Shown here piece by piece: positions 17,309 to 50,485 of a DNA stretch of 64,000 nucleotides (position 1 is the stretch's first letter; the number at the start of each line of letters is the position of its first letter). The DNA is from Methylomarinovum caldicuralii. Lineage in GTDB: Bacteria > Pseudomonadota > Gammaproteobacteria > Methylococcales > Methylothermaceae. Both the position numbers and the translations under genes were made by a program. A model generated the notes under the pieces. That model was not told the origin of the DNA and ran no database searches. It saw only the letters and a list, made by a program, of their open reading frames with translations. Where the stretch lies: assembly GCF_033126985.1 (NCBI RefSeq), contig NZ_AP024714.1:372001-436000 (forward strand). The letters run 5' to 3'.

Positions 17309-17726
17309 TGCGCTCGCGCCAGCGCGCGATACGCTCCAGCAGCACCGGCGGCGAGCCGAAACACATCTCGCCGCTGTCAAGTTCCACCGCCACCTGGACG
17401 GTGGTGCCTTTGGCCAGGCGGCGGCCTTCGGTGTCGTGGATCTCGTAGGCCAGCTTCAGGCGGTATTCGTATTCGAGCATTCTCGCCTTCACCCGCAGGG
17501 TCTGGCCGAAGCGGGCCGGGGCCAGATAGCGGACCTGCAGATCCACCACCGGCCACACGTAGCCGGTGGCCTTCATGGTGAGGTAGTCGTAATCGATAGT
17601 TTCGAGCAAGGCGCAGCGGGCGATTTCGAAGTATTTGAGGTAATGGCCGTGCCAGACGATGCCGAGCATGTCGGCATCGAAGAAGGGCACCTCTAGGGTC
17701 ACCTCGGTCTCGGGCAGCCCGCTCAT
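17280..17726 (-). CDS. Acyl-ACP/CoA thioesterase, hot-dog fold (ApeK-like)
   Basis: A 148-residue protein of the YbgC/4HBT type: [20 protein letters not shown] carries the Asp and HGxY active-site pattern. It is the last gene of a minus-strand operon of APE type, overlapping the acyltransferase by ATGA. It probably releases the polyene acyl chain from the carrier protein. The convergent 3' overlap with the dodecin gene means little room for a terminator. Confidence 0.88.
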
Positions 17727-18649
17727 GGCGCCTCCCAGAAGGGGTAGAAGTTGAACCATTGCAGCGGCGCCTGCAAACAGTGGCGCTGCAGGCGCTCGAC
17801 GAAGGGGCGGGCGTAGGCGCGGATCGACGCCAAACGCTCCGCCCTTTCCTGCGGCAGCTGGACCTGTTCGTGCAGCGGGTCGAAGTGGATGTGATAGCCG
17901 TCGCCGCGGCGATAGCAAAACAGGGTGAACACCGGGCACTGGAGCAGGTGGGCCAGCAGCCAGGGGCCCTGGGGAAACGGGGCCGGGGCGCCTAGAAACG
18001 GCAGCTGCACCACCCGCTGGGGGCTGCTCACCGGAACTCGGTCCCCCACCAGCACCACGAACTCGCCCTGGCGCACTTTGTCCTGCAGCAGGATTGCCGT
18101 GGCCGGGTCGATCTCGGTCACCTGAATCAAGGTCATGTGGTGGGAGCGGTCCACGCTGCCGAGCAGGCGGTTGAACTTCTCCGCGTGCTTGGTGTGCACC
18201 AGGATGTTGAGGCGCAGGCGCCGGCGGAAGTCGGCCAGCGCCCGGCAAACCTCCAGGTTGCCGAGATGGGCGGTGACGATCAGGCCGCCCTGGCCCTGAT
18301 CGAGCAGCCGCAGGAATAGCTCGCGGTTGTGGAAGGCCACCGCGGCGGTATCGAAGCGTCCCAGCCAGACCACGATCTTGTCCAGCAGGCATTCGGCGAA
18401 GCTGAGGAAATGACGGTAGCTGTGCCACAGACCGCCGTCCAGCCCCAGTTGCGGCGCGAAGCGGTGCAGCCGGCGCAGGTAATCGCGCGAGGCCGCCCGC
18501 GCCCGGCGGTTGACCACGAAGTAGTAGCCCACCACCGGATACAGAAACAGCCGGAAGAAGGGCCGGCCCAGCAGCAGATACACCCCCAGCAGGAAGCGCA
18601 TCCCCCAGAGGACGCCGCGTTCCTCCATCGCCGCCCAGTGCCCGCTCAC
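17723..18649 (-). CDS. Lipid A lauroyl-type (LpxL/HtrB family) acyltransferase
   Basis: A 308-residue protein, starting at a GTG (18649) that overlaps the previous stop as GTGA; an ATG at 18628 is an alternative. An N-terminal membrane segment is followed by the HLGNLE stretch (GLIVTAHLGNLEVCRALADF) typical of LpxL-like acyltransferases, and GDRVPV further on. In APE clusters such enzymes attach the polyene to a lipid or glycan acceptor in the inner membrane. Confidence 0.85.
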   Translation of the reverse strand: MSGHWAAMEERGVLWGMRFLLGVYLLLGRPFFRLFLYPVVGYYFVVNRRARAASRDYLRRLHRFAPQLGLDGGLWHSYRHFLSFAECLLDKIVVWLGRFDTAAVAFHNRELFLRLLDQGQGGLIVTAHLGNLEVCRALADFRRRLRLNILVHTKHAEKFNRLLGSVDRSHHMTLIQVTEIDPATAILLQDKVRQGEFVVLVGDRVPVSSPQRVVQLPFLGAPAPFPQGPWLLAHLLQCPVFTLFCYRRGDGYHIHFDPLHEQVQLPQERAERLASIRAYARPFVERLQRHCLQAPLQWFNFYPFWEAP

Positions 18650-19353
18650 CGCCACCCTCCCAGACGCTGCAGGAACAGGCGCGCGTGCATCCGGCTGATG
18701 CGCCAGTTGTCTTCCCAGGCGCGGAAGTGGGACACGCCATCGGCCCGGTAGCGCACCCGGGTGGGCAGCCACACCATCGGCACCCCGGCCCAGTGCAGCC
18801 GCACCAGGATTTCGATGTCGAAATCCATGCGATCGCCACGGACTTTCTCCAGCAGCGGTTCCAGCACCGCCAGCGGATAGACGCGGAAGCCGCACATGGC
18901 GTCGGGAATCGCCAGGGAAGCGGTGTTGATCCACACCCACACGTGGGTGAGCCAGCGGCCATAATAACGGCTGCGGGGCATGGAGGCGTCGAAACGGGGC
19001 CGGCCGCAGACCGCCGCCTCGGGCCGGGACCGGGCCACCTCCAGGAAGGCCGGCACGTCGGCCAGCTCGTGCTGGCCGTCGGCGTCGATCTGCAGCGCGT
19101 GACTGAAACCGGCCGCCCGCGCCGCCCGCAGGCCGGTCTTCACCGCCGCCCCCTTGCCGCGGTTGCGGGCATGGCGCAGCACCGTCACCCCGCCCTCATC
19201 GCCCAGGCTGTCGATGACGCGGCGGTGGGCGGGATCGCTGCCGTCGTCCACCAGAAAGCAGGGCAGGCCGTGGGACCGCAATGCGGCAACGATGGTCCCG
19301 AGACGGTCGCTGTGGTTGTACACGGGGATCACCGCGCAGGGTTCGAACGCCAT
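18646..19353 (-). CDS. Family 2 glycosyltransferase
   Basis: A 235-residue GT-A fold protein: PVYNHSDRLG at the N-terminus, VDDGSDP, and DADGQHELADVPAF carrying the metal-binding DxD. The start is the ATG at 19353; a GTG at 19359 overlaps the upstream stop. Such enzymes occur in APE clusters beside the acyltransferase and presumably build the lipid-linked head group for the polyene. Confidence 0.88.
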   Translation of the reverse strand: MAFEPCAVIPVYNHSDRLGTIVAALRSHGLPCFLVDDGSDPAHRRVIDSLGDEGGVTVLRHARNRGKGAAVKTGLRAARAAGFSHALQIDADGQHELADVPAFLEVARSRPEAAVCGRPRFDASMPRSRYYGRWLTHVWVWINTASLAIPDAMCGFRVYPLAVLEPLLEKVRGDRMDFDIEILVRLHWAGVPMVWLPTRVRYRADGVSHFRAWEDNWRISRMHARLFLQRLGGWR

Positions 19354-19355
19354 CG

Positions 19356-19706
19356 TCACTCCCAGTACAGCCGCCCGGAACTGCACTCCCCTTCCCCAGT
19401 GCGGTAACGGAAGGCCAGCCGCTTGCGTTCGGGATCGTAATCGAGGCGCAATTCCAGCGTCATCTCCGGCACCACCAGGCGCTTGAACTTGATGTTCTCC
19501 ATCCGCCGGAAACACAGCGGCAGGGCGAATTCCTCCAGAAACAGCGCTGCGGCCCAGTGGATCTGCACCACCCCGGCAAGAAGGGGAAAACCGGGAAAAT
19601 GGCCCTGGAAACAGGCCAGATCCGCCGGCAGATACAGGCGGTAGTCCACCCGCCAGTCTTCCCGCCGGCGGGCCAGAATCTGCGGCAGCGGGCGGGGATC
19701 AGGCAT
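19356..19706 (-). CDS. Hot-dog dehydratase-like protein (ApeI-like)
   Basis: A 116-residue FabA/FabZ-like fold: LACFQGHFPGFPLLAGVVQI holds the HFPGxPxxPG-type active-site loop with the catalytic His. It is one of two dehydratases in the cluster. In characterised APE systems two such proteins (ApeI and ApeP) act on the growing chain. It overlaps the membrane protein gene by 8 bp. Confidence 0.88.
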   Translation of the reverse strand: MPDPRPLPQILARRREDWRVDYRLYLPADLACFQGHFPGFPLLAGVVQIHWAAALFLEEFALPLCFRRMENIKFKRLVVPEMTLELRLDYDPERKRLAFRYRTGEGECSSGRLYWE

Positions 19707-20259
19707 GGCCGTTGCGCCGCATCGTCCAGCGCCGCACCCCGTATTCCACCGCCATCAGGGCGCCGCTGAGCAGATAAGCGAGCAGACCGTTGTAAAACGT
19801 CCACAGGCGCAGGTCCCCGTACCAGACGGTGAAGGCGGCGATAGCGCCGTTGACGGCGAAGAACAGGCACCAGACCCAGGTGACGGTGCGGGTGTAACGC
19901 ACCCCTTCGGGAGGCAGATCAGGGTCCAGCAGGCGCGCCAGCCGCTCCACCACCGGCGGCGGAAACCACCACAGCGACGCCAGAAACCAGACCAGAAACA
20001 CCCCGTTGACCAGCACCGGATAAAGCAGCAGCGATCCCTCCCGCCCCCACAGCAGCAGGCCTGCCACAGCCAGGGTCAGGGCCCAAAACGGCCAGCCCCC
20101 TCTCAGCCACCAGGCCCGCAGCCCCATCAGCCCCAGCAACGCCAGCAGCAGCCAGCGGGGATCAATGCGGCCGAGGGACAACCACACCAGGAGCGGATAC
20201 AGCAGGGTGAGAGCGACGAGGACGGCCAACCACCATCCGCGCCCCGGACGGCGGCTCAT
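19699..20259 (-). CDS. Polytopic membrane protein of APE cluster (COG4648-like)
   Basis: A 186-residue, Trp/Leu-rich protein with about six membrane helices. It carries the segment RLARLLDPDLPPEGVRYTRT followed by WVWCLFFAVNGAIAAF, as seen in the conserved membrane protein of APE loci. A paralogue lies at 49609 in the other half of the cluster. The function is unknown; it may organise the synthase or transport at the inner membrane. Confidence 0.8.
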   Translation of the reverse strand: MSRRPGRGWWLAVLVALTLLYPLLVWLSLGRIDPRWLLLALLGLMGLRAWWLRGGWPFWALTLAVAGLLLWGREGSLLLYPVLVNGVFLVWFLASLWWFPPPVVERLARLLDPDLPPEGVRYTRTVTWVWCLFFAVNGAIAAFTVWYGDLRLWTFYNGLLAYLLSGALMAVEYGVRRWTMRRNGHA

Positions 20260-20513
20260 GGGCGGCTGAGGCGCTGCACCACATCGACGACGTCGCCAAC
20301 GGTCCGGATCTGACGAAAGTCATCCGGCGGGATGCGCTTGCCGATGAGATCGTGCAGACGGACCACCAGATCGACCGCATCGATGCTGTCGATGTCCAGT
20401 TCCTGGAAGGTGGTCTCGGGGGTGACCTGTGCCGGGTCGATCTCGAACAGTTCCTCGAGCAGGCGGCACAGCGTGGCGTAAACGGCATCCCGGTCTGTCA
20501 TCGTGTCCTTCAT
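20256..20513 (-). CDS. Acyl carrier protein (ApeE/F-like)
   Basis: An 85-residue ACP. The start at 20513 has GGGAGA 8 nt upstream; an alternative is the ATG at 20501. The phosphopantetheine site is DSIDAVD within FQELDIDSIDAVDLVVRLHD. It overlaps the membrane protein gene by ATGA. A 101-bp gap separates it from the PlsC-like gene, the largest in this operon, so an internal promoter may lie there. Confidence 0.92.
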   Translation of the reverse strand: MKDTMTDRDAVYATLCRLLEELFEIDPAQVTPETTFQELDIDSIDAVDLVVRLHDLIGKRIPPDDFRQIRTVGDVVDVVQRLSRP

Positions 20514-20614
20514 CAAAGGGTGTCTCCCCGGTTGAACGGGAGCTGCGATTTCCCTGATTGTAGCGCAAGGAGAGAAAGCGACCAAGGATGCAAGCGCCGG
20601 GTGTCACCTTCGCT

Positions 20615-21397
20615 TCAACGCCTCCCGGCAGGCGCTCTCGAAGCATCTCGCTCATGCCAATCCGAATACAGCCGTTCCAGATGGCGGGTCAAACGCCTGG
20701 CGGCCACAGACAAGGGCAGCCCCGCGTCCATGACCTTTCCAGGATCGATTTCCGCCCCCACGGTCACCGTCACCGCAGGTCGATACTCGGGCACCTGATG
20801 CCAGGACTGCCCCTTGCCCAGCAACAGGGGCCGGTAACGCAGGTACACCGGCACGATGGGCGCACCGGTCTCCAGGGCAATGCGGGCAGCGCTGCGCTGG
20901 AACCGCCACGCCGCTTCCGGCGGGGTGCGGGTTCCCTGGGGGAACAGGATCAGGTTGGCGCCTTGCCGCAGCGCGGCCAGCGCCGCCGGCAGCAAGGTCT
21001 GCGAATCGTCCGCGAGGATGTGGCCGCAGCAGCGGATCGGCCGGCCCACCAGCGGCACCCGCGCCAGCGACGGCTTGACCACGCATACGGCGTCCTCCAC
21101 GAAAGCGAACAGCAGCACGATGTCGAGAAACGAGGGGTGGTTGGCGACGATCACCCGCCCCCGGCCCCGCAGGCGCTGCGCACCTTCCAGGTGGAAGTCC
21201 CAAACCCCGGTCCGGCGCATCCATTCAACGAAAAAGCGAAACGCCCGCCGGCTCAGACGGCGGGCGTAGGCCGGACGGGCGGCGGGGGGATGACGCCAGG
21301 CGGTGGCCGGATAGATCAGCCACCACACCAGCAGCGCGCCCAGCCCGTAGACCAGATAGCTGAGCACGGTGGCGGCAAAGCGCAAGCCCCGTTCCAT
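20615..21397 (-). CDS. PlsC-type 1-acyl-glycerol-3-phosphate acyltransferase-like protein
   Basis: A 260-residue protein with an N-terminal membrane segment. It has the PlsC motifs NHPSFLD (H-x4-D) and FPQGTRT, then PVYLRYRPLL. It starts 1 nt after the ketosynthase stop. In APE clusters a PlsC-like enzyme is usual and probably forms the lipid acceptor or transfers the product. The C-terminal 15 residues are Arg/Ala-rich. Confidence 0.9.
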   Translation of the reverse strand: MERGLRFAATVLSYLVYGLGALLVWWLIYPATAWRHPPAARPAYARRLSRRAFRFFVEWMRRTGVWDFHLEGAQRLRGRGRVIVANHPSFLDIVLLFAFVEDAVCVVKPSLARVPLVGRPIRCCGHILADDSQTLLPAALAALRQGANLILFPQGTRTPPEAAWRFQRSAARIALETGAPIVPVYLRYRPLLLGKGQSWHQVPEYRPAVTVTVGAEIDPGKVMDAGLPLSVAARRLTRHLERLYSDWHERDASRAPAGRR

Positions 21398-21398: not shown

Positions 21399-22625
21399 TC
21401 AGGGGTGGCGGCGCAGGATCAGGGCGGTGTTGATGCCGCCGAAGGCGAAATTGTGGCTCGCCACCACCTCGCAGTCGAGCCTCCGGCCGTCGCCAGTGAG
21501 ATAGTCCAGCGGCGCGCAGGCAGGATCGGGATGCTCCAGGTTGAGATTGGGATGGAACCAGCCCTCGCGCATCATTTCGATCGCCGCCAAGGCTTCCAGC
21601 GCCCCGCAGGCCCCCAGGGTGTGGCCGGTGTAGCTCTTGAGGGTGCTGACCGGCGTGCGCTCGCCATAGACGTCCCAGGTGGCCCAGCTCTCGGCTTCGT
21701 CTCCCTGGCGGGTGCCGGTGCCGTGGGCGCTGACGTAACCCACCGCTTGCGGCGGCAGGCCGGCGTCCTCCAGCGCCAGCTCCATCGCCCGGCGCATGGT
21801 GGGGCGCGACGGCTGGGTGACGTGGGCGCCGTCGGCATTGGTGCCGAAGCCGGCGATTTCGGCGTGGATGCGGGCGCCGCGCGCCAGGGCGTGGTCACGG
21901 TCCTCCAGAATCAGGGTGCAGGCTCCCTCGCCCAGCACCAGGCCGTCGCGGTCGCGGTCGAAGGGGCGGGGGGTCGCCTGTGGCGCCTCGTTGCGGGTGC
22001 TGGCGGCGTACAGGGTGTCGAACACCGCCACTTCCGTGGGGCACAGTTCCTCGGCGCCACCGGCGATCATCACCGTCTGGCGCCCGGTTCGGATCGCCTC
22101 ATAGGCGAAACCGATGGCCTGGCTGCCGGAAGTGCAGGCGCTCACCGCCGGGATGATGCGGCCGCGCACCTGGAAGAACAGGGCAACGTTGACCGCGGTG
22201 GTGTGTCCCATCATCTTGAGATAGGTGCCGGCGTTGAGACCGCCGAGGCGGTGGTGGAGCAGCATGGCGCCGAAATCGGCGATGGCGTCGGTGGAGCCCA
22301 CCGAGGATCCGTAGGCCACGCCGGTTTCCCCGGAAGCGACGATGGGGTCGTCCAGCAGGCCGGCATCGGCCAGCGCCAGCTCGCTGGCGCGCACCGCCAG
22401 CAGCGACACCCGCCCCATGCTGCGGGTGCGCTTGCGGGTATAGTGGTCCGGCAATTGGAAATCGGTCACCGGTGCCGCCAGCAAGCAATGCAACCCTTCG
22501 TAGGCCGCCCAGTCGTCGCGCCGGGCCACGGCGTTGCGCCGCTGCCGCAGCCGCTCCCGCACCGTGGCCCAATCCGACCCCAGGGGGGAGATGGCCGCCA
22601 TGCCGGTGACCACCACCCGTCTCAT
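21399..22625 (-). CDS. Beta-ketoacyl-ACP synthase II-type (ApeR-like)
   Basis: A 408-residue FabF-type condensing enzyme with the complete Cys-His-His triad: SACTSGSQAIG (Cys), SAHGTGTRQGD (His) and KSYTGHTLGACG (Lys and His). It overlaps the ketoreductase by ATGA. It is separate from the fused KS-CLF at 44466, so it probably is the homodimeric KS of the pathway, needed for early elongation or starter loading. Confidence 0.92.
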   Translation of the reverse strand: MRRVVVTGMAAISPLGSDWATVRERLRQRRNAVARRDDWAAYEGLHCLLAAPVTDFQLPDHYTRKRTRSMGRVSLLAVRASELALADAGLLDDPIVASGETGVAYGSSVGSTDAIADFGAMLLHHRLGGLNAGTYLKMMGHTTAVNVALFFQVRGRIIPAVSACTSGSQAIGFAYEAIRTGRQTVMIAGGAEELCPTEVAVFDTLYAASTRNEAPQATPRPFDRDRDGLVLGEGACTLILEDRDHALARGARIHAEIAGFGTNADGAHVTQPSRPTMRRAMELALEDAGLPPQAVGYVSAHGTGTRQGDEAESWATWDVYGERTPVSTLKSYTGHTLGACGALEALAAIEMMREGWFHPNLNLEHPDPACAPLDYLTGDGRRLDCEVVASHNFAFGGINTALILRRHP

Positions 22626-23356
22626 CCGCTCAACCCTCCGTCGACGGCGATGACCTGGCGGGTAACGTAGGCCGCCTCCGGCGACAGCAGGAACGCCACC
22701 AGCGCCGCCACCTCCCCCGGTTTGCCGAGACGGCGCTGGGGAATGTGGGCCTTGATCTCCTCCAGGAGCAAGTCGGCGACCATGTCGGTCTCGATCAGGC
22801 CGGGGGCGACACAGTTGACGGTGATGCGGCGCTTGGCCAGTTCCAGGGCCAGCGCCTTGGTGGCGCCGATGATGCCGGCCTTGGCGGCGCTGTAGTTGAC
22901 CTGGCCGCGGTTCCCCAGGAGGCCGGCCACCGAGGCGAGGGTGACGATCCGCCCCGGCCGGCGGCGCTGGATCATGGGCAGCACCAGCGGACGGAGCACG
23001 TTGTAGAAACCGTCCAGATTGGTGTGCACCACCCGGTCCCATTCCTCCCCGGTCATGGCGGGAAACACCGCATCGGCGGTCAGGCCGGCGTTGCAGACCA
23101 CGCCATAATAGGCCCCGTGAGCGGCGACATCGGCCTCCAGAGCCGCCGCGGCGGCGGCCCGGTCGGCCACGTCGAAGGCCAGGCAGCGCACGGTGACGCC
23201 GTGGTTCCGGCGCAACGCCTCCGCCAGCGCTTCGAGCAGTTCCCGATTGCGGCGGCAGGTCAGGACCAGGTCGTACCCTTCGCGCGCCAGGCGCTCGGCG
23301 ATGGCGCGGCCGATGCCGCGGCTGGCACCGGTGACCAGGACGGTTTCAGACTTCAT
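22622..23356 (-). CDS. 3-oxoacyl-ACP reductase, FabG-type (ApeQ-like)
   Basis: A 244-residue SDR protein: cofactor motif TGASRGIG, the CNAGLT strand, active-site Ser in TLASVAG, Tyr and Lys in NYSAAKAG, and VAPGLIETDM. It reduces the beta-keto group of the carrier-bound intermediate with NADPH. Overlaps on both sides place it in one translational unit with the KS and the dehydratase. Confidence 0.95.
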   Translation of the reverse strand: MKSETVLVTGASRGIGRAIAERLAREGYDLVLTCRRNRELLEALAEALRRNHGVTVRCLAFDVADRAAAAAALEADVAAHGAYYGVVCNAGLTADAVFPAMTGEEWDRVVHTNLDGFYNVLRPLVLPMIQRRRPGRIVTLASVAGLLGNRGQVNYSAAKAGIIGATKALALELAKRRITVNCVAPGLIETDMVADLLLEEIKAHIPQRRLGKPGEVAALVAFLLSPEAAYVTRQVIAVDGGLSG

Positions 23357-23813
23357 CAGCTCGCTCCAGATAGGCTTTCAGATCCTGCGGCAGCAGCACG
23401 TTCAGACGGGCATCGGCCAGCGGCCGGCCGGCTTCGATGGCGCAGTCGAACACGCACATGTCGTTGGCGGCCCGGAACACCCGCCGCGCCCGCACGCAAA
23501 GCTTCTGCCCCACCGGGAAATGATCCACCGCTGCCTCGAAACGTCGCGTTCCCAGCAACAGGCCGGCCCGGATCGGCTCCCCCCGGTGAAGGCAATGATA
23601 GCCGGACCAGACGGCCACGGTCTGGGCCATGTACTCCAGCCCCACCCAGGCCGGGACACGGCCCGGCTCCAGCAGAAACAGCGGATCATCGCGCACGGTC
23701 AGGGCGGTACGGGCAGTCTCGTCGGTGATCTCCACCACCTCGTCCACCAAGCGCATGACGCCGCGCTGGGGCAACAACTCGGTGATGGGGAAACGTCGGG
23801 GCGGGTAGTTCAC
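23346..23813 (-). CDS. 3-hydroxyacyl-ACP dehydratase-like protein (ApeP-like)
   Basis: A 155-residue hot-dog protein, first gene of the minus-strand operon. The start is a GTG at 23813 (VNYPPRRFPITELLPQRGVM); the longer frame to 23867 starts with TTG and adds non-homologous-looking residues. VGLEYMAQTVAVWSGYH matches the ApeP/FabZ-like second half. It would dehydrate alongside the protein at 19356. The operon promoter must lie in the 89 bp before the divergent AMP ligase. Confidence 0.85.
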   Translation of the reverse strand: MNYPPRRFPITELLPQRGVMRLVDEVVEITDETARTALTVRDDPLFLLEPGRVPAWVGLEYMAQTVAVWSGYHCLHRGEPIRAGLLLGTRRFEAAVDHFPVGQKLCVRARRVFRAANDMCVFDCAIEAGRPLADARLNVLLPQDLKAYLERADEV

Positions 23814-23902
23814 GGCATCTCGATGCGGTTGACGGCAGATTTTTTCATGCCCGCCGGGGAAATGCAACGCGGTCGGGGCTGTGGCACAATGCCACCTACA
23901 TC

Positions 23903-25147
23903 ATGAAACCGCCACCCATGGGTTCCGGAACCCCGCCCGAAGAACTCCAACGCCGGATTGCCGCCCTGGCGCCGGGGCTGCCGCGCCGCCGCCCCCTCGT
24001 CAACCTGTGCCGGGACCGCATCCGTTTCACCGCGGTCCTGCTGCACGCCGCCTGCCGGCGGCAACGCTGCCTGCTGCCGCCCACCCACAGCCCCGCCGCC
24101 GTGGCGGAACTGCAGGCCCGCTTTCCCGATGCCGTCCTCGTGACCGATGACGCCGTCGATCCCGCCCCCGCGTTTCCCTGCCTGCCTTCTCCCTGGCCGC
24201 CCCTGCGCCGCTGGCGCGTTCGGCTGCGGCTTATGTGTTTCACCTCCGGCTCCAGCGGCCGGCCGGCGGCCTGGGAGAAGACCGGAGCGATGCTGGTCCG
24301 CGGCGCCCGCTGCGCCCTCGCCGCCCTGGGTCTGGGCGAGCGGGACTGGGACGTGGTCGCCACCACCCCAGCCCAGCACCTGTTCGCCCTGGAAACTGCG
24401 GTGATCTGGCCGCTCTGTTCCCGGCTGCGGCTGACCGCCGCCCGCCCCTTCTATCCCGAGGACATCCGCCGCCTGCTGGCCCGCAGCCCCCGGCCGGTCC
24501 TGCTGGTTTCCACCCCGCTGCAGCTGCGCGCCTGCCTGGGCTCGGCGCCGCGCTGGCGCAACCTGGCCGGTATCCTGTCGGCCACCGCCCCGCTCGATCC
24601 CGGCTTGGCGCAGGAACTGGAAACCGCCACCGGCCGGCCGGTGTGGGAAATCTACGGCAGCACCGAAACCCAGTCGCTCGCCTGGCGCCACCCCGCCCGC
24701 GAGGAAGGCTGGCGCCCCTATCCCGGGGTACGGCTGGACTGCGGCACCGAAGGCGTCACCGTCCGTGCGCCCTGGCTGCCCCGCCCCGTCGTCCTGGCGG
24801 ACCGCTTCGAGCCGCTTGGCGATGGCCGCCTGCGGCTGCTGGGACGGAGCCAGGAATTGATCAAGGTGGGCGGCAAGCGCATCGCCCTGGGAGAACTGAA
24901 CCATCACCTCCAGGCCATCGACGGCGTCGAGGACGGCCTGTTCTTTCCCACCGAAACCAACCGGGTCGGCGCCCTGGTGGTCAGCCGCCTGGACCGCCGC
25001 ACCCTCCTCGCCCGGCTGCGCCAGCGCATCGATCCGGTGTTCCTGCCGCGGCCGCTGCTGTTCGTCGAAGCCATTCCCCGCACGCCCACCGGCAAGGTAA
25101 GACAGGCCGACCTGGAGGCGCTGCTCAGCCGCCTGCGCCGCCGCTGA
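23903..25147 (+). CDS. AMP-dependent acyl/aryl ligase (ApeH-like)
   Basis: A 414-residue ANL-superfamily protein, shorter than usual (500 or more). P-loop-like CFTSGSSGRPAAWEKT, then EIYGSTETQSLAW, LADRFEPL and IKVGGKRIALGE, with a final RTPTGKVRQ Lys. The P-loop has Ala-Ala-Trp where PKG is usual, a feature of ApeH-type proteins, so adenylation may be altered. It would activate an acyl or aryl starter and load it on an ACP. It is divergent from the ApeP-like operon. Confidence 0.85.
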   Translation: MKPPPMGSGTPPEELQRRIAALAPGLPRRRPLVNLCRDRIRFTAVLLHAACRRQRCLLPPTHSPAAVAELQARFPDAVLVTDDAVDPAPAFPCLPSPWPPLRRWRVRLRLMCFTSGSSGRPAAWEKTGAMLVRGARCALAALGLGERDWDVVATTPAQHLFALETAVIWPLCSRLRLTAARPFYPEDIRRLLARSPRPVLLVSTPLQLRACLGSAPRWRNLAGILSATAPLDPGLAQELETATGRPVWEIYGSTETQSLAWRHPAREEGWRPYPGVRLDCGTEGVTVRAPWLPRPVVLADRFEPLGDGRLRLLGRSQELIKVGGKRIALGELNHHLQAIDGVEDGLFFPTETNRVGALVVSRLDRRTLLARLRQRIDPVFLPRPLLFVEAIPRTPTGKVRQADLEALLSRLRRR

Positions 25148-26654
25148 CCCGGCGCCACAGGCTTTCCTGATCCTCAATGCCAAGGATGGCCTGGGCCGCC
25201 ATCACCCCCGACAGCGCCGCCCCGTACACCCCGCCGCCGGGCGCGGCCCAGTGACCGGCCAGATACAGCCCCGGCAGGGGTGTCTCCACCGCCGGCCGTC
25301 CCGGCCCCACCTGGCGCGGCAAGGCGGCCCAGCCGTAGGCCGCGCCCTGGTGATTGAAGGTATAGCGCATCATGGTGCGCGGGGTGCCCGACTCCAGCCA
25401 GCGGATGCGCGCCCCCAGCCCCGGCAGCCGCGCCTCGGCCCGGGCCAGCAGACGCTGCTGGAAACGGGATTTCAGCACGCGCCAGTCCTCGGAAAGCCGG
25501 TAGGGGGCCAGGGTGGTCAGCATCAGCAGGTGACCGCCGTCGCGGCTCAGACCGGGATCGGTGTGGGTCGGGCAGGTGACGGAGAACCAGTCCGGCGTCC
25601 CCCGGCAGGTGGCATCGAAGGCCCGTTCGTGGTCCCAGCCGGGATAGAAGAAAACCTCGTGCGCCGCGGTGGTCGGCGGCAGGGAATCGACACCGAGGTA
25701 GGTGACGAAGGCCGACAGGGACGGCTGCATCCGCCGCAGCCGCTGCAGGTAACGGGACGGAACCCGGTCGGCCGGCACCAGGTGTTCCATGGTGTGGCGC
25801 AGATCGGCGTTGGCGATCACCACGCCAGCCTCAATGTCCTGACCGGTTTCGGTCATCACTCCGGCGGCGCGCCCGTCGTCCAGCACGATCCGGCGCACCC
25901 CGGTGCGGTAGAGCAGCTCGCCGCCGGCCGCCTCGATGCACCCGGCCAGCGCGTCGGCCAGACGCTGGAACGAACCCTGGCAGTAACCGGCCCCGTCCCG
26001 GACGTAGCCCATGAACATCAGCGCCCAGTAGAGAAACGACAGCCGCCCCGGCGGCAGCCCCAGATAGGGCCACAGTCCCGCCAGTGCTGCCATCAGGCGG
26101 GGATCGGAGAAATGATCGGCCATGACCTGGGCCAGGGTGGCTTGGCGGAAACGGGCCAGCAGGGGAAAGTCCTGTCCCTGGCCGGCGGCGGCGCGGCAGG
26201 CCTGGTCCGCCAGTTCCGCGGCCAGATCGAGAAACGCTTCCAGCCCCCGGCGCTGGACCGGGAAGCGTTCCCCCAGAGATTCCCGCAGGGCGCCCAGCCC
26301 CTGGGGAAGGGCGATGCGTCCGTCCGGAAACGCCACATGGGCCACCGGGTCCACCGCCAGGAAACGGACCCGGCCGTCCAGCCCCAGGCTCTCCACCAGC
26401 ATCCCCAGCACCCGCCGGTGCGGCGGGCCGGAAGCGGCGCAACCGCCGACCGTGTGCACACCGGCGTCACACTGGATGCCGCGGCGGCGGAAGCCGTGCA
26501 GGTAACCGCCGGGGCGGTCGTGGCGTTCGATCACCAGCACCGAGCGCCCGCAGCGGGCCAAAATCGCCGCCGCCGTCAGCCCGCCGATACCGGCGCCGAC
26601 GACCACGGCGTCGTAGCGATGCCGCCGCGATTCCCGGTGAAAGCCGGCCTGCAT
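25125..26654 (-). CDS. CrtI/phytoene desaturase-like FAD oxidoreductase
   Basis: A 509-residue protein: GAGIGGLTAAAILARCG (dinucleotide-binding), ERHDRPGGYLHGF, and the C-terminal PGLYLAGHWAAPGGGVYGAALSG characteristic of the CrtI family. It starts with TGATG coupling to the lipoprotein gene upstream. It may introduce or isomerise double bonds in the polyene, or act on a ring. Its 3' end overlaps the ligase gene by 23 bp, convergently. Confidence 0.88.
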   Translation of the reverse strand: MQAGFHRESRRHRYDAVVVGAGIGGLTAAAILARCGRSVLVIERHDRPGGYLHGFRRRGIQCDAGVHTVGGCAASGPPHRRVLGMLVESLGLDGRVRFLAVDPVAHVAFPDGRIALPQGLGALRESLGERFPVQRRGLEAFLDLAAELADQACRAAAGQGQDFPLLARFRQATLAQVMADHFSDPRLMAALAGLWPYLGLPPGRLSFLYWALMFMGYVRDGAGYCQGSFQRLADALAGCIEAAGGELLYRTGVRRIVLDDGRAAGVMTETGQDIEAGVVIANADLRHTMEHLVPADRVPSRYLQRLRRMQPSLSAFVTYLGVDSLPPTTAAHEVFFYPGWDHERAFDATCRGTPDWFSVTCPTHTDPGLSRDGGHLLMLTTLAPYRLSEDWRVLKSRFQQRLLARAEARLPGLGARIRWLESGTPRTMMRYTFNHQGAAYGWAALPRQVGPGRPAVETPLPGLYLAGHWAAPGGGVYGAALSGVMAAQAILGIEDQESLWRRVSGGAGG

Positions 26655-27067
26655 CAATCGGCGTAGCCGTCCTCGGTGGGGTCGTAGATGACCTGATGGA
26701 CCTTGTAGACCCCTGTCCCCATGGCGCCGCTGGGCACGAACACGACCCGCCCCAGACCCTTGAAGTAGGCCTCCTTGCGGTGGACGTCGGGACCGAAATA
26801 GAACGGAATCCACTGCTTGCCGGTGAGATAGGTCTTGGTTTCGGTGGGCTGACCGAGAATGTCGTACACGTGGCCTTCGCTCATGCCCGGCTGGATCTTA
26901 GCCAGCGGGCTGTCGGCCGGTATTTCCGGCGTGGCGACAGACCCGTCGTTCCGTTTGACCGAAGACCCCGCGGCCGCCTGCGATGCGTCCGCGTGACCGC
27001 CCTGACTGGCGCAGCCGCCCACCGCCAGTCCCAGACAGGCGCCCAGCAGCAACAACCGAATTCGCAT
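26654..27067 (-). CDS. Lipoprotein with SmpA/BamE-like domain
   Basis: A 137-residue lipoprotein (lipobox VGGC, about Cys19). The mature part includes SPLAKIQPGMSEGHVYDILG, as in the SmpA/OmlA family, then a strand-rich end. It is coupled to the CrtI-like gene. A comparable helix-turn element ends the lipoprotein at 50486. It is probably periplasmic or outer-membrane and may handle the polyene lipid. Confidence 0.75.
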   Translation of the reverse strand: MRIRLLLLGACLGLAVGGCASQGGHADASQAAAGSSVKRNDGSVATPEIPADSPLAKIQPGMSEGHVYDILGQPTETKTYLTGKQWIPFYFGPDVHRKEAYFKGLGRVVFVPSGAMGTGVYKVHQVIYDPTEDGYAD

Positions 27068-27114: not shown

Positions 27115-27141
27115 GCCCGAAGCGGAAAGAACATCGGTCCC

Positions 27142-27387
27142 ATGAACGACATCAAATCCCGCCTGCGCGATTTCGTCCTCGGCGAGCTGGTTTACTGCGA
27201 AGACCCGGACGCCTTCGGCGACGACGACGATCTGCTCGAGGCCGGCCTCGACAGCCTCGGCATCATGCGCCTGATCATGTTCGCCGAACGCGAGTTCGAC
27301 GTCACCCTGCCCGACACCGACATCGAGCCTGACACCGTCCGCACCCTCGAACGCCTGAGCCGCTGGATCGAAGCCCACCGCCGATGA
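27142..27387 (+). CDS. Peptidyl/acyl carrier protein (PltL/RedO-like by context)
   Basis: An 81-residue carrier protein with the phosphopantetheine site LDSLGIMRL in LLEAGLDSLGIMRLIMFAE. The acidic N-terminal half and stand-alone form fit carriers paired with free-standing adenylation enzymes. The stop overlaps the next start by ATGA. With the adenylation enzyme and dehydrogenase downstream it would carry proline and then pyrrole-2-carboxylate as a thioester. Confidence 0.9.
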   Translation: MNDIKSRLRDFVLGELVYCEDPDAFGDDDDLLEAGLDSLGIMRLIMFAEREFDVTLPDTDIEPDTVRTLERLSRWIEAHRR

Positions 27388-28664
27388 CGGCCCCCGTTGC
27401 GCTGAATCCGGCCGACCACTTCCTGCTGGCGATGGACCGGGAGATCCGCAAGGCCGGGCTGCCCGGCGCCTGGTGCGCCTTCGCCCTGGAACTGGCGGGC
27501 AGACCGGACACCGCTGCCCTGGAAAGCGGACTGGCCGAACTGGCCCGTCATTTTCCCACTCTCGGCGCCCGGCTGGTGTCCCGGGGACGGCGTTTCGCCT
27601 GGCAGCCCCAGGGCCGCGGCATTCCCCTGCACACCCGCTCCTGGGACGGCGACCTCAGCACCGCACTGGCGGACCTGCTCAACGGCGCCGGCGATGCCTT
27701 CGCCTCCCCGCCCCTGGATTGCCACTGCCTGACCGCCCCGGAACGCACCCTGCTGGTGGTCCGCTGGCTGCACCCCCTGCTCGACGCCGGCGGGGTCAAA
27801 CGCCTGCTCGATTATCTGGCGGCCGAACCGCAGGCACGGGACTGCTACCACGGCCGGGAAACCGCCCTGGTGCTGCAAAAGTGGCGCGGCTGGTCCTGGC
27901 CCCGGCGCCTGAAACTGCTGTGGCGCGGCAAACGCCACAACGACTGGATCGACCGCCTCGCCAGCAGCCAGCCGGCCCGGACGGCCACAGCCCCCCGCCG
28001 GCTGCGCCATACCGTGCTGCTCCTGGACCGGGACGAAACCCAAGCGGTGCTGGCAAGCGCCCGCCGCCGGGTCGGCCTCGGCGGCCAGACCCTCTATCTC
28101 ATCGGCTGCCTGATGCGGGCGCTGGAGGCCGCCGGACCGGCCGAGCGGCGCGATGCCTGGTGCATTCCCTACGCCTTTGACCTGCGCCTTGGCAACGCCC
28201 CGGCGCCGGTGACCGGCAACCAGGTGGCGGCGCTGTTCGCCCAGGCCGGGCACGCCGTCACCGCCGACCGCGACGCCCTGTTCCGCCACCTGCGGGCCCA
28301 GCACGAAAGCGCCCTCCGGCAGGAGCTGGATCTGGCCTATCTGCCCCTGATGTGGCTGGGGCAGTGGCTGTCCCTGGACCGCTACGCGGAAATCCTGCGC
28401 CGGCAGAAGTCCGGCGGCGAACGGGCTTCGGCCTGGTTCTCCGACGTGGGCGAAACCCGCTTGCGCTGCCCGGATTTTCTCGGCGCCCCGGTCACCGGCG
28501 TCCATCACGCCTGCCAGGTCACCGCCCCGCCTTCGCTGGCGGTGCTGTTCGCCCGTTTCGACGGCCGCCTCCAGGCCGCCATCAACCATCTGGCCCCGGA
28601 CCTGGACGACGCCTGGGCGGCGCGCTTCCGCAGGTGTCTGCACGATGAACTCCTTTCCGGCTGA
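27384..28664 (+). CDS. Condensation-domain-like acyltransferase
   Basis: A 426-residue protein resembling stand-alone NRPS condensation or WES-type acyltransferases. The motif region is RWLHPLLDAGG, which keeps the catalytic second His and the Asp of HHxxxDG but has Leu for the first His and Ala before Gly. The C-terminal part has YLPLMWLGQWLSL and FSDVGETR, like the latch region. It may transfer the activated pyrrolyl or acyl group between carriers or onto an acceptor. Such a protein is not standard in pyrrole or APE pathways. Confidence 0.65.
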   Translation: MTAPVALNPADHFLLAMDREIRKAGLPGAWCAFALELAGRPDTAALESGLAELARHFPTLGARLVSRGRRFAWQPQGRGIPLHTRSWDGDLSTALADLLNGAGDAFASPPLDCHCLTAPERTLLVVRWLHPLLDAGGVKRLLDYLAAEPQARDCYHGRETALVLQKWRGWSWPRRLKLLWRGKRHNDWIDRLASSQPARTATAPRRLRHTVLLLDRDETQAVLASARRRVGLGGQTLYLIGCLMRALEAAGPAERRDAWCIPYAFDLRLGNAPAPVTGNQVAALFAQAGHAVTADRDALFRHLRAQHESALRQELDLAYLPLMWLGQWLSLDRYAEILRRQKSGGERASAWFSDVGETRLRCPDFLGAPVTGVHHACQVTAPPSLAVLFARFDGRLQAAINHLAPDLDDAWAARFRRCLHDELLSG

Positions 28665-30126
28665 AGCCTCCCCCTTACTGGGGCCTGTTCTCACCCGGGC
28701 GGCCGGGCACCCCGACGCCCCCGCGCTGCGGGAGGGCGACCGGACCCTCAGCTACGCTGGACTGGCCCGCCGGGACTCCGCCATCGCCGCCGAACTCGGC
28801 CGCCTGCGCCTGCCGCCGGGCACGCCGGTGGCCATCGACCTGCCCCGCGGCATCGACGCCGCCTGCGCCGTGCTGGGCATCCTCGCCGCCGGCCATCCCT
28901 ATCTGCCCCTCGACCCCAAGGCGCCGCCGGCCCGCCGCCGGGCCATCGTGGCCGACGCCTGCGCCGGCGCCGTCGTCGCCCGGGAAAACTGGGCGGAACT
29001 GCCCACCGTACTCCCCCGGGGAGAGCGTGACGCGCCCCTTACCGGCCCGGGGTCGGCGGAAGCCCTGGCGGCGATCCTCTACACCTCCGGCTCCACCGGC
29101 CGCCCCAAGGGCGTCGCCCTCAGCCACGGCGCCATCGCCGCCTTCGCCGACTGGGCCCGCACCCAGGTTGCGCTGACGCCGGCCGACCGCATCGCCGCCA
29201 TCGCCCCGCTGGCGTTCGACCTGTCCACCTTCGACCTGTTTTCGGTGCTCGGCGCCGGAAGCTGTGCCGATTTCCTCCCCGACGGCCTGGCCATGGCCCC
29301 GCGCCGTTTCACCCAGTGGCTGGCCGCCCGCGGCATCACCGGCTTCTACACCATCCCCTCCCTGCTGGGATTCTGGGCCTGCAAGGGCGGGCTGGCGGAG
29401 ATCCCTTTGCCCGGCCTGCGCTTCCTCCTCTTCGCCGGCGAGCCGTTTCCCACCCCGTCGCTGAAGCGGCTGGCGGACGCCCTGCCCCAGGCGGCGCTGT
29501 TCAACCTCTACGGTCCCACGGAAACCAACGTCTGCTGCTGCTGGCCGGTGGACCGCCGCCGTCTCGACACCGATGATCCGATTCCCATCGGCCGCCCCGC
29601 CTGCGGCGACGCGTTGAAGGTCGATCCGGGCAGCGGCGAGCTGAAGGTCCGCGGCCCCACCCTGCTGTCCGGTTACTGGCGGGAAGGCCGCCTGCGGCCG
29701 GCGCTGGATCGTGAGGGTTGGTACGCCACCGGCGACCGGGTGGAAGTCAACGAGCACGGGGAATACGTCTGGCGCGGCCGCCTCGACCGCATGGTGAAGA
29801 TCGCCGGCCACCGGGTGGAGCCGGCCGAGGTGGAGGCGGCGCTGCTGGCCCTGCCCGGGGTGACGGCCGCCGCCGTGGTCGCCTGCGACACCCCGGACGG
29901 CCCCCAGCTGCACGCCGCCGTGGTCGGCGACGGCACCCCCGCGGCCCTGCGCCTGGCGCTGCGCGCCCGCCTGCCCGGCTACATGGTTCCCGCCCGCATC
30001 ACCCGCCTGCCCGCCCTGCCCCGGCTCGCCAACGGCAAGCCGGATCTGGAGGCCGTCCGGCAGCTGGTGGAAAAAAGAAAAGCCGGTCACGGGGACAGGC
30101 CGAGGGAGGGGGAGGAGGTTCAATGA
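28645..30126 (+). CDS. Stand-alone adenylation enzyme, predicted L-prolyl-[carrier] ligase (PltF/RedM-like)
   Basis: A 493-residue adenylation protein with A3 LYTSGSTGRPKG, A5 NLYGPTETN, A7 WYATGDRV and A10 Lys in LANGKPD. Aligning to GrsA by eye gives pocket residues Asp192, Leu193, Phe196, Tyr235, Leu262, Ala264, Leu288, Val296, Cys297, Lys: D-L-F-Y-L-A-L-V-C-K. From memory this is the code, or within one residue of it, of the proline-activating enzymes of pyoluteorin and prodigiosin pathways. It overlaps the condensation-like gene by 20 bp. Confidence 0.85.
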   Translation: MNSFPAEASPLLGPVLTRAAGHPDAPALREGDRTLSYAGLARRDSAIAAELGRLRLPPGTPVAIDLPRGIDAACAVLGILAAGHPYLPLDPKAPPARRRAIVADACAGAVVARENWAELPTVLPRGERDAPLTGPGSAEALAAILYTSGSTGRPKGVALSHGAIAAFADWARTQVALTPADRIAAIAPLAFDLSTFDLFSVLGAGSCADFLPDGLAMAPRRFTQWLAARGITGFYTIPSLLGFWACKGGLAEIPLPGLRFLLFAGEPFPTPSLKRLADALPQAALFNLYGPTETNVCCCWPVDRRRLDTDDPIPIGRPACGDALKVDPGSGELKVRGPTLLSGYWREGRLRPALDREGWYATGDRVEVNEHGEYVWRGRLDRMVKIAGHRVEPAEVEAALLALPGVTAAAVVACDTPDGPQLHAAVVGDGTPAALRLALRARLPGYMVPARITRLPALPRLANGKPDLEAVRQLVEKRKAGHGDRPREGEEVQ

Positions 30127-30190: not shown

Positions 30191-31261
30191 ATGGCCATGA
30201 ACTTTTATGCCCTCGGCCGCACCGGCCTGTTCCGTCACGCCGTCCCGGAATCCTGGGGCGGTCTGGGGGACGGCTTTGCCGGGCTGCTCCAGGCCCATAT
30301 CCGCCTGGGACGGGAAAGCCGCGATCCCGGCCTGGTGCTGGCAGCGGGCGCCCACCTGTGGGGGGCGCTGTTCCCCCTGCTGCGTCACGGCGACGATGCC
30401 CAGCGAAACCGCTGGCTGCCGCAGCTGGTCAGCGGGCAGTGGCTCGGCGGCCACGCCATCACCGAACCCCAGGGCGGCTCCGATCCGGCGGCGATGACGG
30501 CCCGGGCCGTCCGCTGCGGCGAAGGCTTCCGCCTCGATGGGGAAAAGTATTACATCACCAACGTGCCGGCGGCTGACCTGCTGATCGTCTACGCCCGTCT
30601 CGACGGGGCCGTGTCCGCCTTCGTGGTGTTGAAGGACGACCCCGGCGCGCACTATCGCCAGGACTATGCCGTGGCCGCCTGCCGCAGCGCGCCGATGGGC
30701 GAGGTCGTGCTCGAGGACTGCCGGCTTCCTGCCGGCCGCCTGCTGGGCAGACCCGGCGCCGGTCTGGCGCTGATTCAGCAAGCGCTGGAGTGGGAGCGGG
30801 CCTTCATCTTCGCCGGCATCGCCGGGGTGATGGAATGGCAGCTGGAACAGGTGATCGCCTTCAGCCGCAAGCGCCGCAGCGGCGCGGCCCATCTGGGCCG
30901 TCATCAGGCCGTCGCCCACCGCATCGCCGACATGCGCACCCGCCTCGACACCGTCCACCTGTGGCTGCGGGAATGCGCCCGCCTGGCCGACGCCGGCCTG
31001 CGCCTGACCCTGGCCTCGGCCCAGACCAAGCTGGTGGCCTCCCGCGCCTTCCTGGAATCGACCCTGGACGCCGTTCACATCCTCGGCGCCCGGGGGCTGG
31101 AGGAAGCCGGCGGCATGAGCGCGTGGCTCAACGACGCCGCCGCCGGGCGGCTGTTTTCCGGCTCCGACGAGGTGCTGAAGAACCTGATCGCGGCGCTGCT
31201 GGGAACCGGGGAAGGCTACCGGCCCGGGATCGGCGGATCAAATCCACAGTCTCGGCAATAA
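30191..31261 (+). CDS. Acyl-CoA dehydrogenase family protein, likely prolyl-carrier dehydrogenase (PltE/RedW-like)
   Basis: A 356-residue flavin dehydrogenase: ITEPQGGSDPAAM, then CRSAPMGEVVLEDCRLP, EWERAFIFAGIAGVMEWQLE and RLFSGSDEVLKNLIAALLG. The first start codon leaves the protein about 30-40 residues short of the usual N-terminal helical region. The frame is open upstream to about 30119 without an ATG, GTG or TTG. A 25-codon ORF (30123-30200) coupled by ATGA to the ligase fills that space in another frame. Either an unusual start or an N-terminal deletion or frameshift is possible. The reaction would be proline to pyrrole on the carrier. Confidence 0.8.
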   Translation: MAMNFYALGRTGLFRHAVPESWGGLGDGFAGLLQAHIRLGRESRDPGLVLAAGAHLWGALFPLLRHGDDAQRNRWLPQLVSGQWLGGHAITEPQGGSDPAAMTARAVRCGEGFRLDGEKYYITNVPAADLLIVYARLDGAVSAFVVLKDDPGAHYRQDYAVAACRSAPMGEVVLEDCRLPAGRLLGRPGAGLALIQQALEWERAFIFAGIAGVMEWQLEQVIAFSRKRRSGAAHLGRHQAVAHRIADMRTRLDTVHLWLRECARLADAGLRLTLASAQTKLVASRAFLESTLDAVHILGARGLEEAGGMSAWLNDAAAGRLFSGSDEVLKNLIAALLGTGEGYRPGIGGSNPQSRQ

Positions 31262-32548
31262 TCTGGCTTTATCCTCCAGCCGCCCGCCCAGCGCCGTCAA
31301 CCCCGAGGCCTCGATCAGGCGGCGGAAATGGCGGGTGCGGTGGGTGATGTGGGACACCGCCAGCATCAGTTCCAGCTCCCGCTGCGGCACCGAGCGCATG
31401 AAGCGCTTCACCAGCTCAAAATCGACGCCGTTGCCGCCGACGTCCCCCAGGGCCAGGGCGCGGGAGAAGCTGTAGAACTGGTGCAGGCGGTGGGCGCACA
31501 GCTGGGCGTGGCGCTGCCGCCGGGCCGGATCGCGCAGGGATTCGCGGATCGCCAGAGCGGCCAGCAACGCCCCGTAGAAGGCGTTGAGCACGCCGTGGGA
31601 GAAAATCGGATCGACGAAACCGCCGGCATCGCCGATGCAGTAGAGATTGTCCTCGGCCACCTGCGCCACGTGATAGGAAAAGTCCGGCCGCCCGCTCAAG
31701 GAGCCTTCGACGAAGCGGGCCGGGGCCAGCAGCTCCCGCAGATAGGGCGCCCGGGCGCAGGTTTCCAGGAAGTAACGCTGGCGCGCCGCCCCCTCCAGGC
31801 CCCGCACCCGGTCGCGGTAGATCACCAGACCGACGCTGGTGCTCCGGCGCAGCGGGATGTGCCAGATCCAGCCGTCCTCGTAGGCACAGACGAAGGTGAC
31901 CGGTCGCACGGCCTTCAGCTCCTCAAAATCCCGCGCCCGGCCCTCGCCGTCGATGAAGCGGGAATTTTCGAAATAGCCCCAGAAGGACAGGAACTGATGG
32001 GGGGATCGGGCCAAATGGCGGCGGCCGAGGCGGCGCGCCACCAGGCTCGAGGCGCCGCTGGCGTCCACTAGATAGCGGCAGCGCAGAAAGCCCTGTGCCG
32101 GCGGGTTTGCGCGGCGGTCCGCCCAGCGCAGCCGGATTTCCTCCCCGGGCGCCACGTCGGTGACGGTCACCTGCTCGAACACCCGCGCCCCGCAGCGCTC
32201 GGCGTGGCGCAGCAGCAGGTGGTCGAAGACGTCGCGCTCCACGTGCAGCGCCGGACGCTCAAAGCCGAAGTCGGCAAAGCGAATGCGGTGGATCTCCCCC
32301 TCCCACACCGTGATACCGCCCGCCTTGGCGACGAAGCCCTCGGCCTCGATCGCCGGGGTGGCGCCGGTCAGATCGGTGTATTTCCAGAAGTGGGGAATCA
32401 GGCTCTCCCCCACCATCGGCCGCGGATGCCGGGCCCGCTCCAGCACCACCACGTCGAACCCGTCCCGGGCCAGCAATGCCGCAGCGCTGCTGCCGGCAGG
32501 GCCGGCGCCGATGACGGCGATGTCGCAGTGACGGGGCGGCCCGCTCAT
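31238..32548 (-). CDS. Flavin-dependent halogenase-like / FAD oxidoreductase (PltA-type motifs)
   Basis: A 436-residue protein: FAD motif GAGPAG (14-19), GFVAKAGGITVW with Lys75 where flavin halogenases place the catalytic Lys, and WIWHIP at 227-232 matching W-x-W-x-I-P of halogenases. C-terminal GDAGGFVDPIFSHGV contacts FAD. Next to a pyrrolyl-carrier set it would be the counterpart of PltA. An alternative is a non-halogenating relative common in lipid and pigment clusters. It converges with the dehydrogenase gene (24-bp overlap). Confidence 0.75.
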   Translation of the reverse strand: MSGPPRHCDIAVIGAGPAGSSAAALLARDGFDVVVLERARHPRPMVGESLIPHFWKYTDLTGATPAIEAEGFVAKAGGITVWEGEIHRIRFADFGFERPALHVERDVFDHLLLRHAERCGARVFEQVTVTDVAPGEEIRLRWADRRANPPAQGFLRCRYLVDASGASSLVARRLGRRHLARSPHQFLSFWGYFENSRFIDGEGRARDFEELKAVRPVTFVCAYEDGWIWHIPLRRSTSVGLVIYRDRVRGLEGAARQRYFLETCARAPYLRELLAPARFVEGSLSGRPDFSYHVAQVAEDNLYCIGDAGGFVDPIFSHGVLNAFYGALLAALAIRESLRDPARRQRHAQLCAHRLHQFYSFSRALALGDVGGNGVDFELVKRFMRSVPQRELELMLAVSHITHRTRHFRRLIEASGLTALGGRLEDKARLLPRLWI

Positions 32549-33632: not shown

Positions 33633-33689
33633 GATGGAGTGCCTTGTTCATTGATTTTCGATGGACAGAATAGCGTAGGTTAGAAACAA

Positions 33690-50211: not shown

Positions 50212-50474
50212 CGCTGGCGGTGGGCAGCGACGAAGTCGGCCAGGGAAACGAGGGAGGCGAAAATCTGCGGGTTGCGCTTGTCGTCGGAGGTGATCTTGAT
50301 GCCGTAGCGGCGGTCCAGCATCACGCCGATCTCCAGGGCGTCGATGGAATCGAGCCAGAGGCCATCGCCGAACAGGGGGGCTTCGGGGTCGATGTCGTCG
50401 GGGGTCACATCCTCCAGATGCAACCCCTCGATCAGCATGGATTTGAGTTCGTCGATCAGTGCAGTTTCGGCCAT
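50208..50474 (-). CDS. Acyl carrier protein (ApeE/F-like)
   Basis: An 88-residue ACP with the phosphopantetheine site DSIDALEI in GDGLWLDSIDALEIGVMLDR. The start is the ATG at 50474; an upstream TTG (50489) overlaps the lipoprotein gene. The Trp-Leu just before the site is typical of APE carriers. It is the second polyketide ACP of the cluster. Confidence 0.92.
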   Translation of the reverse strand: MAETALIDELKSMLIEGLHLEDVTPDDIDPEAPLFGDGLWLDSIDALEIGVMLDRRYGIKITSDDKRNPQIFASLVSLADFVAAHRQR

Positions 50475-50485
50475 GGACGTTTCCG

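Follow-up and report, generated by a model that had tools for sequence, protein, structure and literature searches.

The window analysed here, a 64,000-nucleotide stretch of DNA from the heat-loving methanotroph Methylomarinovum caldicuralii (contig NZ_AP024714.1, positions 372,001 to 436,000), carries a cassette of four genes that would convert proline into a carrier-bound pyrrole. Read along the forward strand, the cassette encodes a small carrier protein, a condensation-like protein, an adenylation (A) enzyme and an acyl-CoA-dehydrogenase-like (ACAD) protein, the carrier and condensation-like genes lying upstream of the A gene and the dehydrogenase gene downstream. The four genes are found together in 18 of 19 orthologous loci; in the nineteenth (locus L044, genome G056), the condensation-like gene sits on another contig. 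Window coordinates of these and of the surrounding genes can be found in Table 1.

The open reading frame of the A enzyme (28645-30126, forward strand) is open throughout and encodes 493 amino acids. Pfam matches are confined to AMP-binding (1.9e-61) and AMP-binding_C, with no fused condensation or carrier domain. A preliminary description of this DNA had assigned ten residues to the specificity pocket by hand alignment to GrsA: D192, L193, F196, Y235, L262, A264, L288, V296, C297 and the C-terminal lysine, K465. The pocket columns were read off alignments with a GrsA segment (identical to 1AMU 234-335), with PltF (6o6e) and with 7thn, which we take to be PigI, using what we assume to be the GrsA pocket positions (235, 236, 239, 278, 299, 301, 322, 330, 331 and 517). 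The residues so assigned are the same ten. Eight of them (D192, L193, F196, Y235, A264, V296, C297 and K465) show no variation in any of the 20 orthologues, the window enzyme included, and L262 and L288 are the only pocket residues that vary. The Asp and Lys of amino-acid A domains, D192 and K465, are thus kept in all 20 proteins.

PMC3874040 gives L(L/F)YLALVC as the consensus of stand-alone L-proline enzymes over the eight variable positions; the pattern of modular proline domains is a different one, VQ(Y/F)IAHVV. All eight variable positions of the window enzyme (LFYLALVC) fit the stand-alone consensus. The proposed closeness of the code to that of the pyoluteorin enzyme, one residue at most, was borne out by the alignment with PltF, whose columns read D-L-L and then Y-L-A-L-V-C, so that it matches residue by residue except for Leu in place of F196 over the nine positions read, the Lys lying outside these. 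7thn departs further from the window code: its residue is Ile at position 262 and Trp at position 288. Among stand-alone enzymes of the PDB, the best sequence matches are 6o6e (1.9e-72) and 7thn (5.9e-68), both L-proline--[carrier protein] ligases and also the top two for the pocket segment taken alone; CmnG comes next (1.4e-55). The two-domain LgrA and a synthetase of 1,634 residues rank above these.

As a chance control, we read the same columns in 20 other, hand-picked A domains of the order and in the enzyme's matches within its own genome, seven loci (five genes); all of these share 0 to 4 of the eight inner positions with it. Several control domains gave familiar-looking codes of nonribosomal peptide synthetases (NRPS), for example DVWHISLVVK, which lends support to the alignment. 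An AlphaFold2 model of the A enzyme (mean predicted local distance difference test, pLDDT, 86.6) has PltF as its match of highest identity among the 50 structural matches listed (37% over 462 residues, Z 45.5, root-mean-square deviation (rmsd) 5.3). Structural likeness was dropped as a pointer to PltF: the 50 matches span only Z 43.3 to 47.0. Such matches being nearly equal, the argument for proline rests on sequence and pocket code, which support the prediction of a stand-alone L-prolyl-AMP ligase of the PltF/RedM type. By itself, the enzyme is a further example of an already known enzyme type.

The preliminary description had taken the code as the key support for a pyrrole. The code stands as support for proline, and by itself argues for proline only; the pyrrole interpretation is supported instead by the neighbouring dehydrogenase, because this protein best matches PigA, RedW and a prolyl-acyl carrier protein (ACP) dehydrogenase. 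Its top NCBIfam models are PigA (1.4e-75) and RedW (2.8e-75), about 108 bits above the third. Of 51 PDB matches listed, the best is the prolyl-ACP dehydrogenase 4irn (2e-57), presumably AnaB, followed by 6cxt, labelled butyryl-CoA dehydrogenase (1e-56), and by 5zw0, a prolyl-peptidyl carrier protein (PCP) dehydrogenase (9.4e-48). Residue E202 of the WE(R/K) motif (WER in the window protein), which we take to be the catalytic base, is invariant in 20 of 20 dehydrogenases and is also present in 4irn, 6cxt and 5zw0. PltL is the second PDB match of the small carrier protein, a weak one (3.2e-5). Homology thus gives good support to a predicted route in which proline becomes pyrrole-2-carboxyl while bound to a carrier protein.

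Relatives were obtained by an alignment-based scan of genome contigs, a scan with a single protein having given none. The loci compared below, 26 of methanotroph type and 53 other proline-type A loci used as control, are the nearest only, the best 80 of at least 589 matches; L076, on a cut contig, was excluded from the control count. Some of these loci come from genomes that also supplied the list behind the A-domain control (L050 from G016 and L068 from G038, for example), and the two sets are hence not independent. The pattern D[LV]xYxAxVCK occurs at all 26 methanotroph-type loci and at 50 of the 53 others, counts in which D192, L193, F196 and V296 are partly selected by the patterns of the locus scan (FDLS[TV]FD[LI][FY] and [YF]GPTETNV). 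The dehydrogenase gene lies downstream of the A gene in the window, as it does within 2 kb at 20 of the 26 methanotroph-type loci and farther away at two, whereas 42 of the 53 other loci have an ACAD gene on the same strand within 2 kb, upstream in 39 cases and downstream in three. The condensation-like gene was seen at 24 of the 26 methanotroph-type loci and at none of the 53 others (tblastn, E 1e-6, over the locus stretch).

The condensation-like protein (426 amino acids) has no Pfam match. Its family alignment, which omits L033 (gene present) and L044 (none in the locus stretch), contains an invariant H130-P-x-x-D134-A-x-G. The AlphaFold2 model (pLDDT 89.2) has a condensation-type fold, the best match being AzeD of Pseudomonas aeruginosa (8s6l; Z 35.0, 408 residues aligned, rmsd 3.2, 16% identity) and the next ones condensation domains (5du9; Z 29.2, 383 aligned, rmsd 3.4). 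The window protein thus shares a predicted fold with AzeD and with NRPS condensation domains, but differs from them in its low identity (to AzeD), in its HxxxDA motif and in its lack of a Pfam match. An ordinary condensation domain is a weakened candidate: PF00668 matches two of 18 members (best 7.2e-5), the window protein not among them. A profile search of the PDB gave nothing convincing, the best hit being a designed repeat protein (8.1e-4), with AzeD at 0.092. Among 369 sampled genomes of the class, three carry the gene, two of them from this order.

The stand-alone A enzyme with a partner carrier and dehydrogenase is an arrangement shared with the systems of PltF (pyoluteorin) and PigI (prodigiosin). 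The window differs from these in the order carrier, condensation-like, A and dehydrogenase, in the inserted condensation-like gene and in its setting. Aryl polyene clusters are marked by ApeI and ApeP dehydratases, a ketosynthase, a ketoreductase, a ketosynthase with a second ketosynthase-like domain (KS-CLF-like), carrier proteins and an exporter. All of these marks are present around the cassette, whose setting, judged from gene content, is an aryl-polyene-type cluster. With its ApeI- and ApeP-like dehydratases, ketosynthase, ketoreductase, KS-CLF-like protein, carriers, acyltransferases, MMPL exporter and LolA-like protein, the cluster resembles those of E. coli (ape), xanthomonadin and Azoarcus arcuflavin, a likeness that rests on Pfam models for ApeI and ApeP and otherwise on the general gene content of such clusters. 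In comparison with aryl polyene clusters, the window adds the proline-to-pyrrole cassette and two FAD halogenase-like genes.

Table 1. Predicted genes of the cassette and of the cluster around it (window coordinates).
Feature	Position	Strand	Evidence
Lipid A acyltransferase-like protein	17723..18940	-	PF03279 2.2e-9
ApeI-like dehydratase	19356..19706	-	PF22818 1e-13
Acyl carrier protein 1	20256..20585	-	PF00550 1.3e-14
Acyltransferase	20615..21397	-	PF01553 1.9e-18
Beta-ketoacyl-ACP synthase	21399..22622	-	NF006587 676 bits
3-Ketoacyl-ACP reductase (FabG2-like)	22622..23356	-	TIGR01831 2e-108
ApeP-like dehydratase	23346..23867	-	PF22817 1.3e-18
Second AMP-dependent ligase, 4-coumarate-CoA-ligase-like	23903..25147	+	PF00501 1.4e-12; TIGR02372 below cut-off
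Phytoene-desaturase (CrtI)-like FAD oxidoreductase (longest open reading frame taken)	25125..26813	-	PF01593 4e-31; TIGR02734 below cut-off
Small carrier protein (predicted prolyl/pyrrolyl carrier), Ser in LDSLG	27136..27387	+	PF00550 3.5e-11
Condensation-like (C-domain fold) protein, 426 amino acids, proposed acyl transferase	27384..28664	+	AlphaFold2 fold match, conserved motif
Stand-alone A enzyme, predicted L-proline--[carrier protein] ligase, code DLFYLALVCK	28645..30126	+	Domains, PDB matches, pocket alignments
ACAD-like protein, predicted prolyl-PCP to pyrrolyl-PCP oxidase	30191..31261	+	NCBIfam, PDB, alignment of 20
FAD-dependent halogenase-like protein 1 (WIWHIP)	31238..32548	-	PF04820 5.6e-25
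FAD-dependent halogenase-like protein 2 (WIWVIP)	43294..44487	-	PF04820 6.3e-27
Ketosynthase with second ketosynthase-like domain (KS-CLF-like)	44466..46376	-	PF00109, PF02801, PF13723
MMPL-family exporter	46753..49017	-	PF03176; co-occurrence with cassette
LolA-like outer membrane carrier	49014..49649	-	PF03548 1.5e-4, below cut-off
Acyl carrier protein 2	50208..50489	-	PF00550 4.5e-7

The association between cassette and polyene genes was examined in 201 Methylococcales genomes, a sample of a larger order. Close genes were defined by thresholds set post hoc at clear gaps (E up to 1.4e-97 for the condensation-like gene and up to 1.5e-118 for the exporter). A close condensation-like gene is present in 60 of the 201 genomes and a close exporter in 64; both are present in 58 and neither in 135 (Fisher p 7e-41, a statistic that ignores the kinship of the genomes, which counts against it). 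The dehydrogenase is present in 62 genomes, alongside the condensation-like gene in 58 of these. Cassette and exporter are no more than 30 kb apart in 33 of the 58 genomes that have both.

Six genomes have a close exporter and no close condensation-like gene. The five of these covered by a further check (all but G104) include four (G035, G107, G163 and G118) that hold an alternative set in the polyene locus, made of a distant condensation-like gene plus an AMP ligase that lacks the Asp of amino-acid domains. The fifth, G097, has a short contig without the alternative set, and its dehydrogenase is on another contig. The genome of M. caldicuralii itself has a second, distant set at 2.083 Mb (L138, G000:C1:2075001-2090000, 6184-11337), with a FAD halogenase-like gene, a condensation-like gene (28%) and a carboxylic-acid AMP ligase. 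In the alternative ligases (L138-L142 and L145), the pocket reads HF(S/T)YITAL followed by a gap and Lys; the Asp is absent, and they were rejected as amino-acid domains of this type.

From the conserved cassette, its homologies and its co-occurrence with the polyene exporter, we infer the following pathway. The stand-alone ligase would activate L-proline with ATP and load it onto the small carrier protein, and the flavoprotein encoded downstream would oxidise the carrier-bound proline to pyrrole-2-carboxyl-S-carrier. The condensation-fold protein would then hand the pyrrole acyl group on to a further partner in the aryl-polyene-type pathway. Either or both of the FAD halogenase-like proteins may add halogen to the pyrrole or to the head of the polyene. 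WxWxIP, a family mark of flavin-dependent halogenases, is present in both, as is a match to the Trp_halogenase model, and protein 1 matches the PDB halogenases 3e1t (1.4e-42) and PltA (3.7e-30); matches of the halogenase-like proteins include non-halogenating flavoenzyme families too, such as QhpG. We consider it probable, at roughly 0.7, that proline is converted to pyrrole on the carrier and feeds the polyene pathway.

Several observations weigh against this reading. The bit scores of the dehydrogenase, 254.8 of 500 and 253.5 of 650, fall short of the NCBIfam equivalog cut-offs, and the protein is about 35 N-terminal residues shorter than 6cxt. Four of the 26 methanotroph-type loci have no ACAD gene in the stretch, two of them near a contig end and two (L063 and L070) not. 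The condensation-like motif, HxxxDA, has neither the HH nor the DG of the HHxxxDG motif of NRPS condensation domains, and the closest fold, AzeD, is titled a dehydratase. At the looser E 1e-20, the exporter is counted in 123 of the 201 genomes; the corresponding count for the condensation-like gene is 63. Of the 58 genomes in which both close markers are present, nine have them on one contig at a distance above 30 kb and 16 have them on different contigs. As regards the short N terminus of the dehydrogenase, a frameshift was rejected as its cause: 20 aligned orthologues start in the same region.

The separations between markers, 25 cases in 58 (some contig splits possibly being assembly breaks), would also suit a cassette that makes a separate small pyrrole metabolite and is merely parked beside the polyene genes. 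We find this improbable: the co-occurrence persists when the genes are unlinked (both occur in 58 of the 60 genomes, and 135 of the 201 sampled have neither), linked markers are found in 33 of the 58, and the four exporter-bearing, cassette-less genomes hold another condensation-like/AMP-ligase set in the same polyene locus. It is still less likely, indeed very unlikely, that the substrate is a proline analogue such as pipecolate, azetidine-2-carboxylate or a substituted proline. The related stand-alone domains CcbC and LmbC have shifted to 4-propylproline, but the LmbC code, VALVAIGC, is very unlike the stand-alone proline consensus that the window enzyme follows (both points from the part of PMC3874040 on these domains), and no gene for the biosynthesis of a proline analogue was recognised among the annotated cluster genes, in which no dedicated search was made. 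The title of AzeD, together with its lead in the fold comparison (Z 35.0 against 29.2 for the next match), raises the possibility that the condensation-like protein is no acyl transferase but a dehydratase like AzeD, with an intermediate bound to a carrier as its substrate. This is unlikely, given an identity of just 16% and a profile match of E 0.092; the His and Asp in HxxxD spacing are invariant, and a common fold is no proof of function.

A more serious alternative concerns where the pyrrole goes. Pyrrole-2-carboxyl may be the polyene starter, extended directly by the ketosynthase in place of the hydroxybenzoyl head of classical aryl polyenes. At loci of the Methylotuvimicrobium type (L050, L055 and L067), the cassette stands beside ketosynthase, dehydratase and KS-CLF genes; L050 is from the culturable methanotroph Methylotuvimicrobium buryatense 5G. 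The distribution of the second AMP-dependent ligase bears on both sides of the question. A window-type second ligase (E below 1e-70) is present in 46 of the 60 genomes with a condensation-like gene, which suggests that the polyene has its own starter, with pyrrole as a second building block, a weak argument in favour of a cap. In these 46 genomes, the ligase lies within 30 kb of the condensation-like gene in just 19, farther away on the same contig in eight and on other contigs in 19; being so often unlinked, it weakens the case for a cap against that for a starter. The ligase is not specific to the cassette either, as 12 genomes without a condensation-like gene have one, and it was not found at E 1e-70 in 14 of the 60, another point that favours a starter, although a weaker match (E 1e-12 to 2e-38) is present in 13 of these, G007 being the exception. 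The G007 contig ends before the expected position of the gene. A starter would also have no obvious need of a condensation-like transferase. On balance we regard the starter as possible but doubtful, and weakly prefer pyrrole as a second building block, or cap, of the polyene, which seems somewhat likelier.

What appears new in the system is the link, across methanotrophs, between a polyene pathway and a predicted proline-to-pyrrole cassette that includes an unmodelled condensation-like protein. Aryl polyene clusters are dominant in Methylococcaceae according to a survey of methanotrophs (PMC11964084), in the main text of which the words pyrrole and proline have no occurrence. A literature search, with most subscription journals outside its reach, recognised no pyrrole aryl polyene or methanotroph pyrrole cluster. 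As a tentative proposal, in which we place less confidence than in the conversion of proline, Methylococcales methanotrophs might make aryl polyenes of a family not described so far, which bear pyrrole and perhaps also halogen. A cassette of four genes, one of them for a condensation-fold transferase whose family has no model, would attach a proline-derived pyrrole to a type II polyketide polyene, and some lineages would have exchanged this cassette for a relative of it that includes a carboxylic-acid ligase. Pigments of the aryl polyene kind are widespread in bacteria. Should the cassette supply such pigments with pyrrole, then in many methane oxidisers, culturable ones included, a different molecule is concealed by the automatic label "aryl polyene", and a sequence-orphan family of condensation-like proteins gains a testable substrate.

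Cassettes were also found outside named Methylococcales, in L057 and L072 (Mariprofundaceae and Mariprofundus) and in L073 (NORP111). The cassettes of L057 and L073 adjoin KS-CLF-like and MMPL genes, a position beside polyene genes that suggests transfer. L070, from the methanotrophic gill symbiont of the mussel Bathymodiolus japonicus, keeps the carrier, condensation-like and A genes, but no dehydrogenase gene was found within 21 kb.

Within the window, a stretch of about 10.7 kb (32559-43191) interrupts the polyene cluster. It contains a Y1-transposase-like gene (below cut-off), a TonB-dependent receptor, a DDE transposase and a tyrosine integrase. The two FAD genes that flank this stretch are adjacent in G007 and about 2.1 kb apart in G009. 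The CrtI-like oxidoreductase is present in all seven loci of the genus (L028-L034), as is a gene for a BamE-like small lipoprotein (26654-27067, below cut-off) located between the divergent halves of the cluster. Farther upstream, positions 9818-12961 encode a 1047-amino-acid protein with Sel1 repeats, weak coiled-coil matches and a C-terminal caspase (C14) domain.

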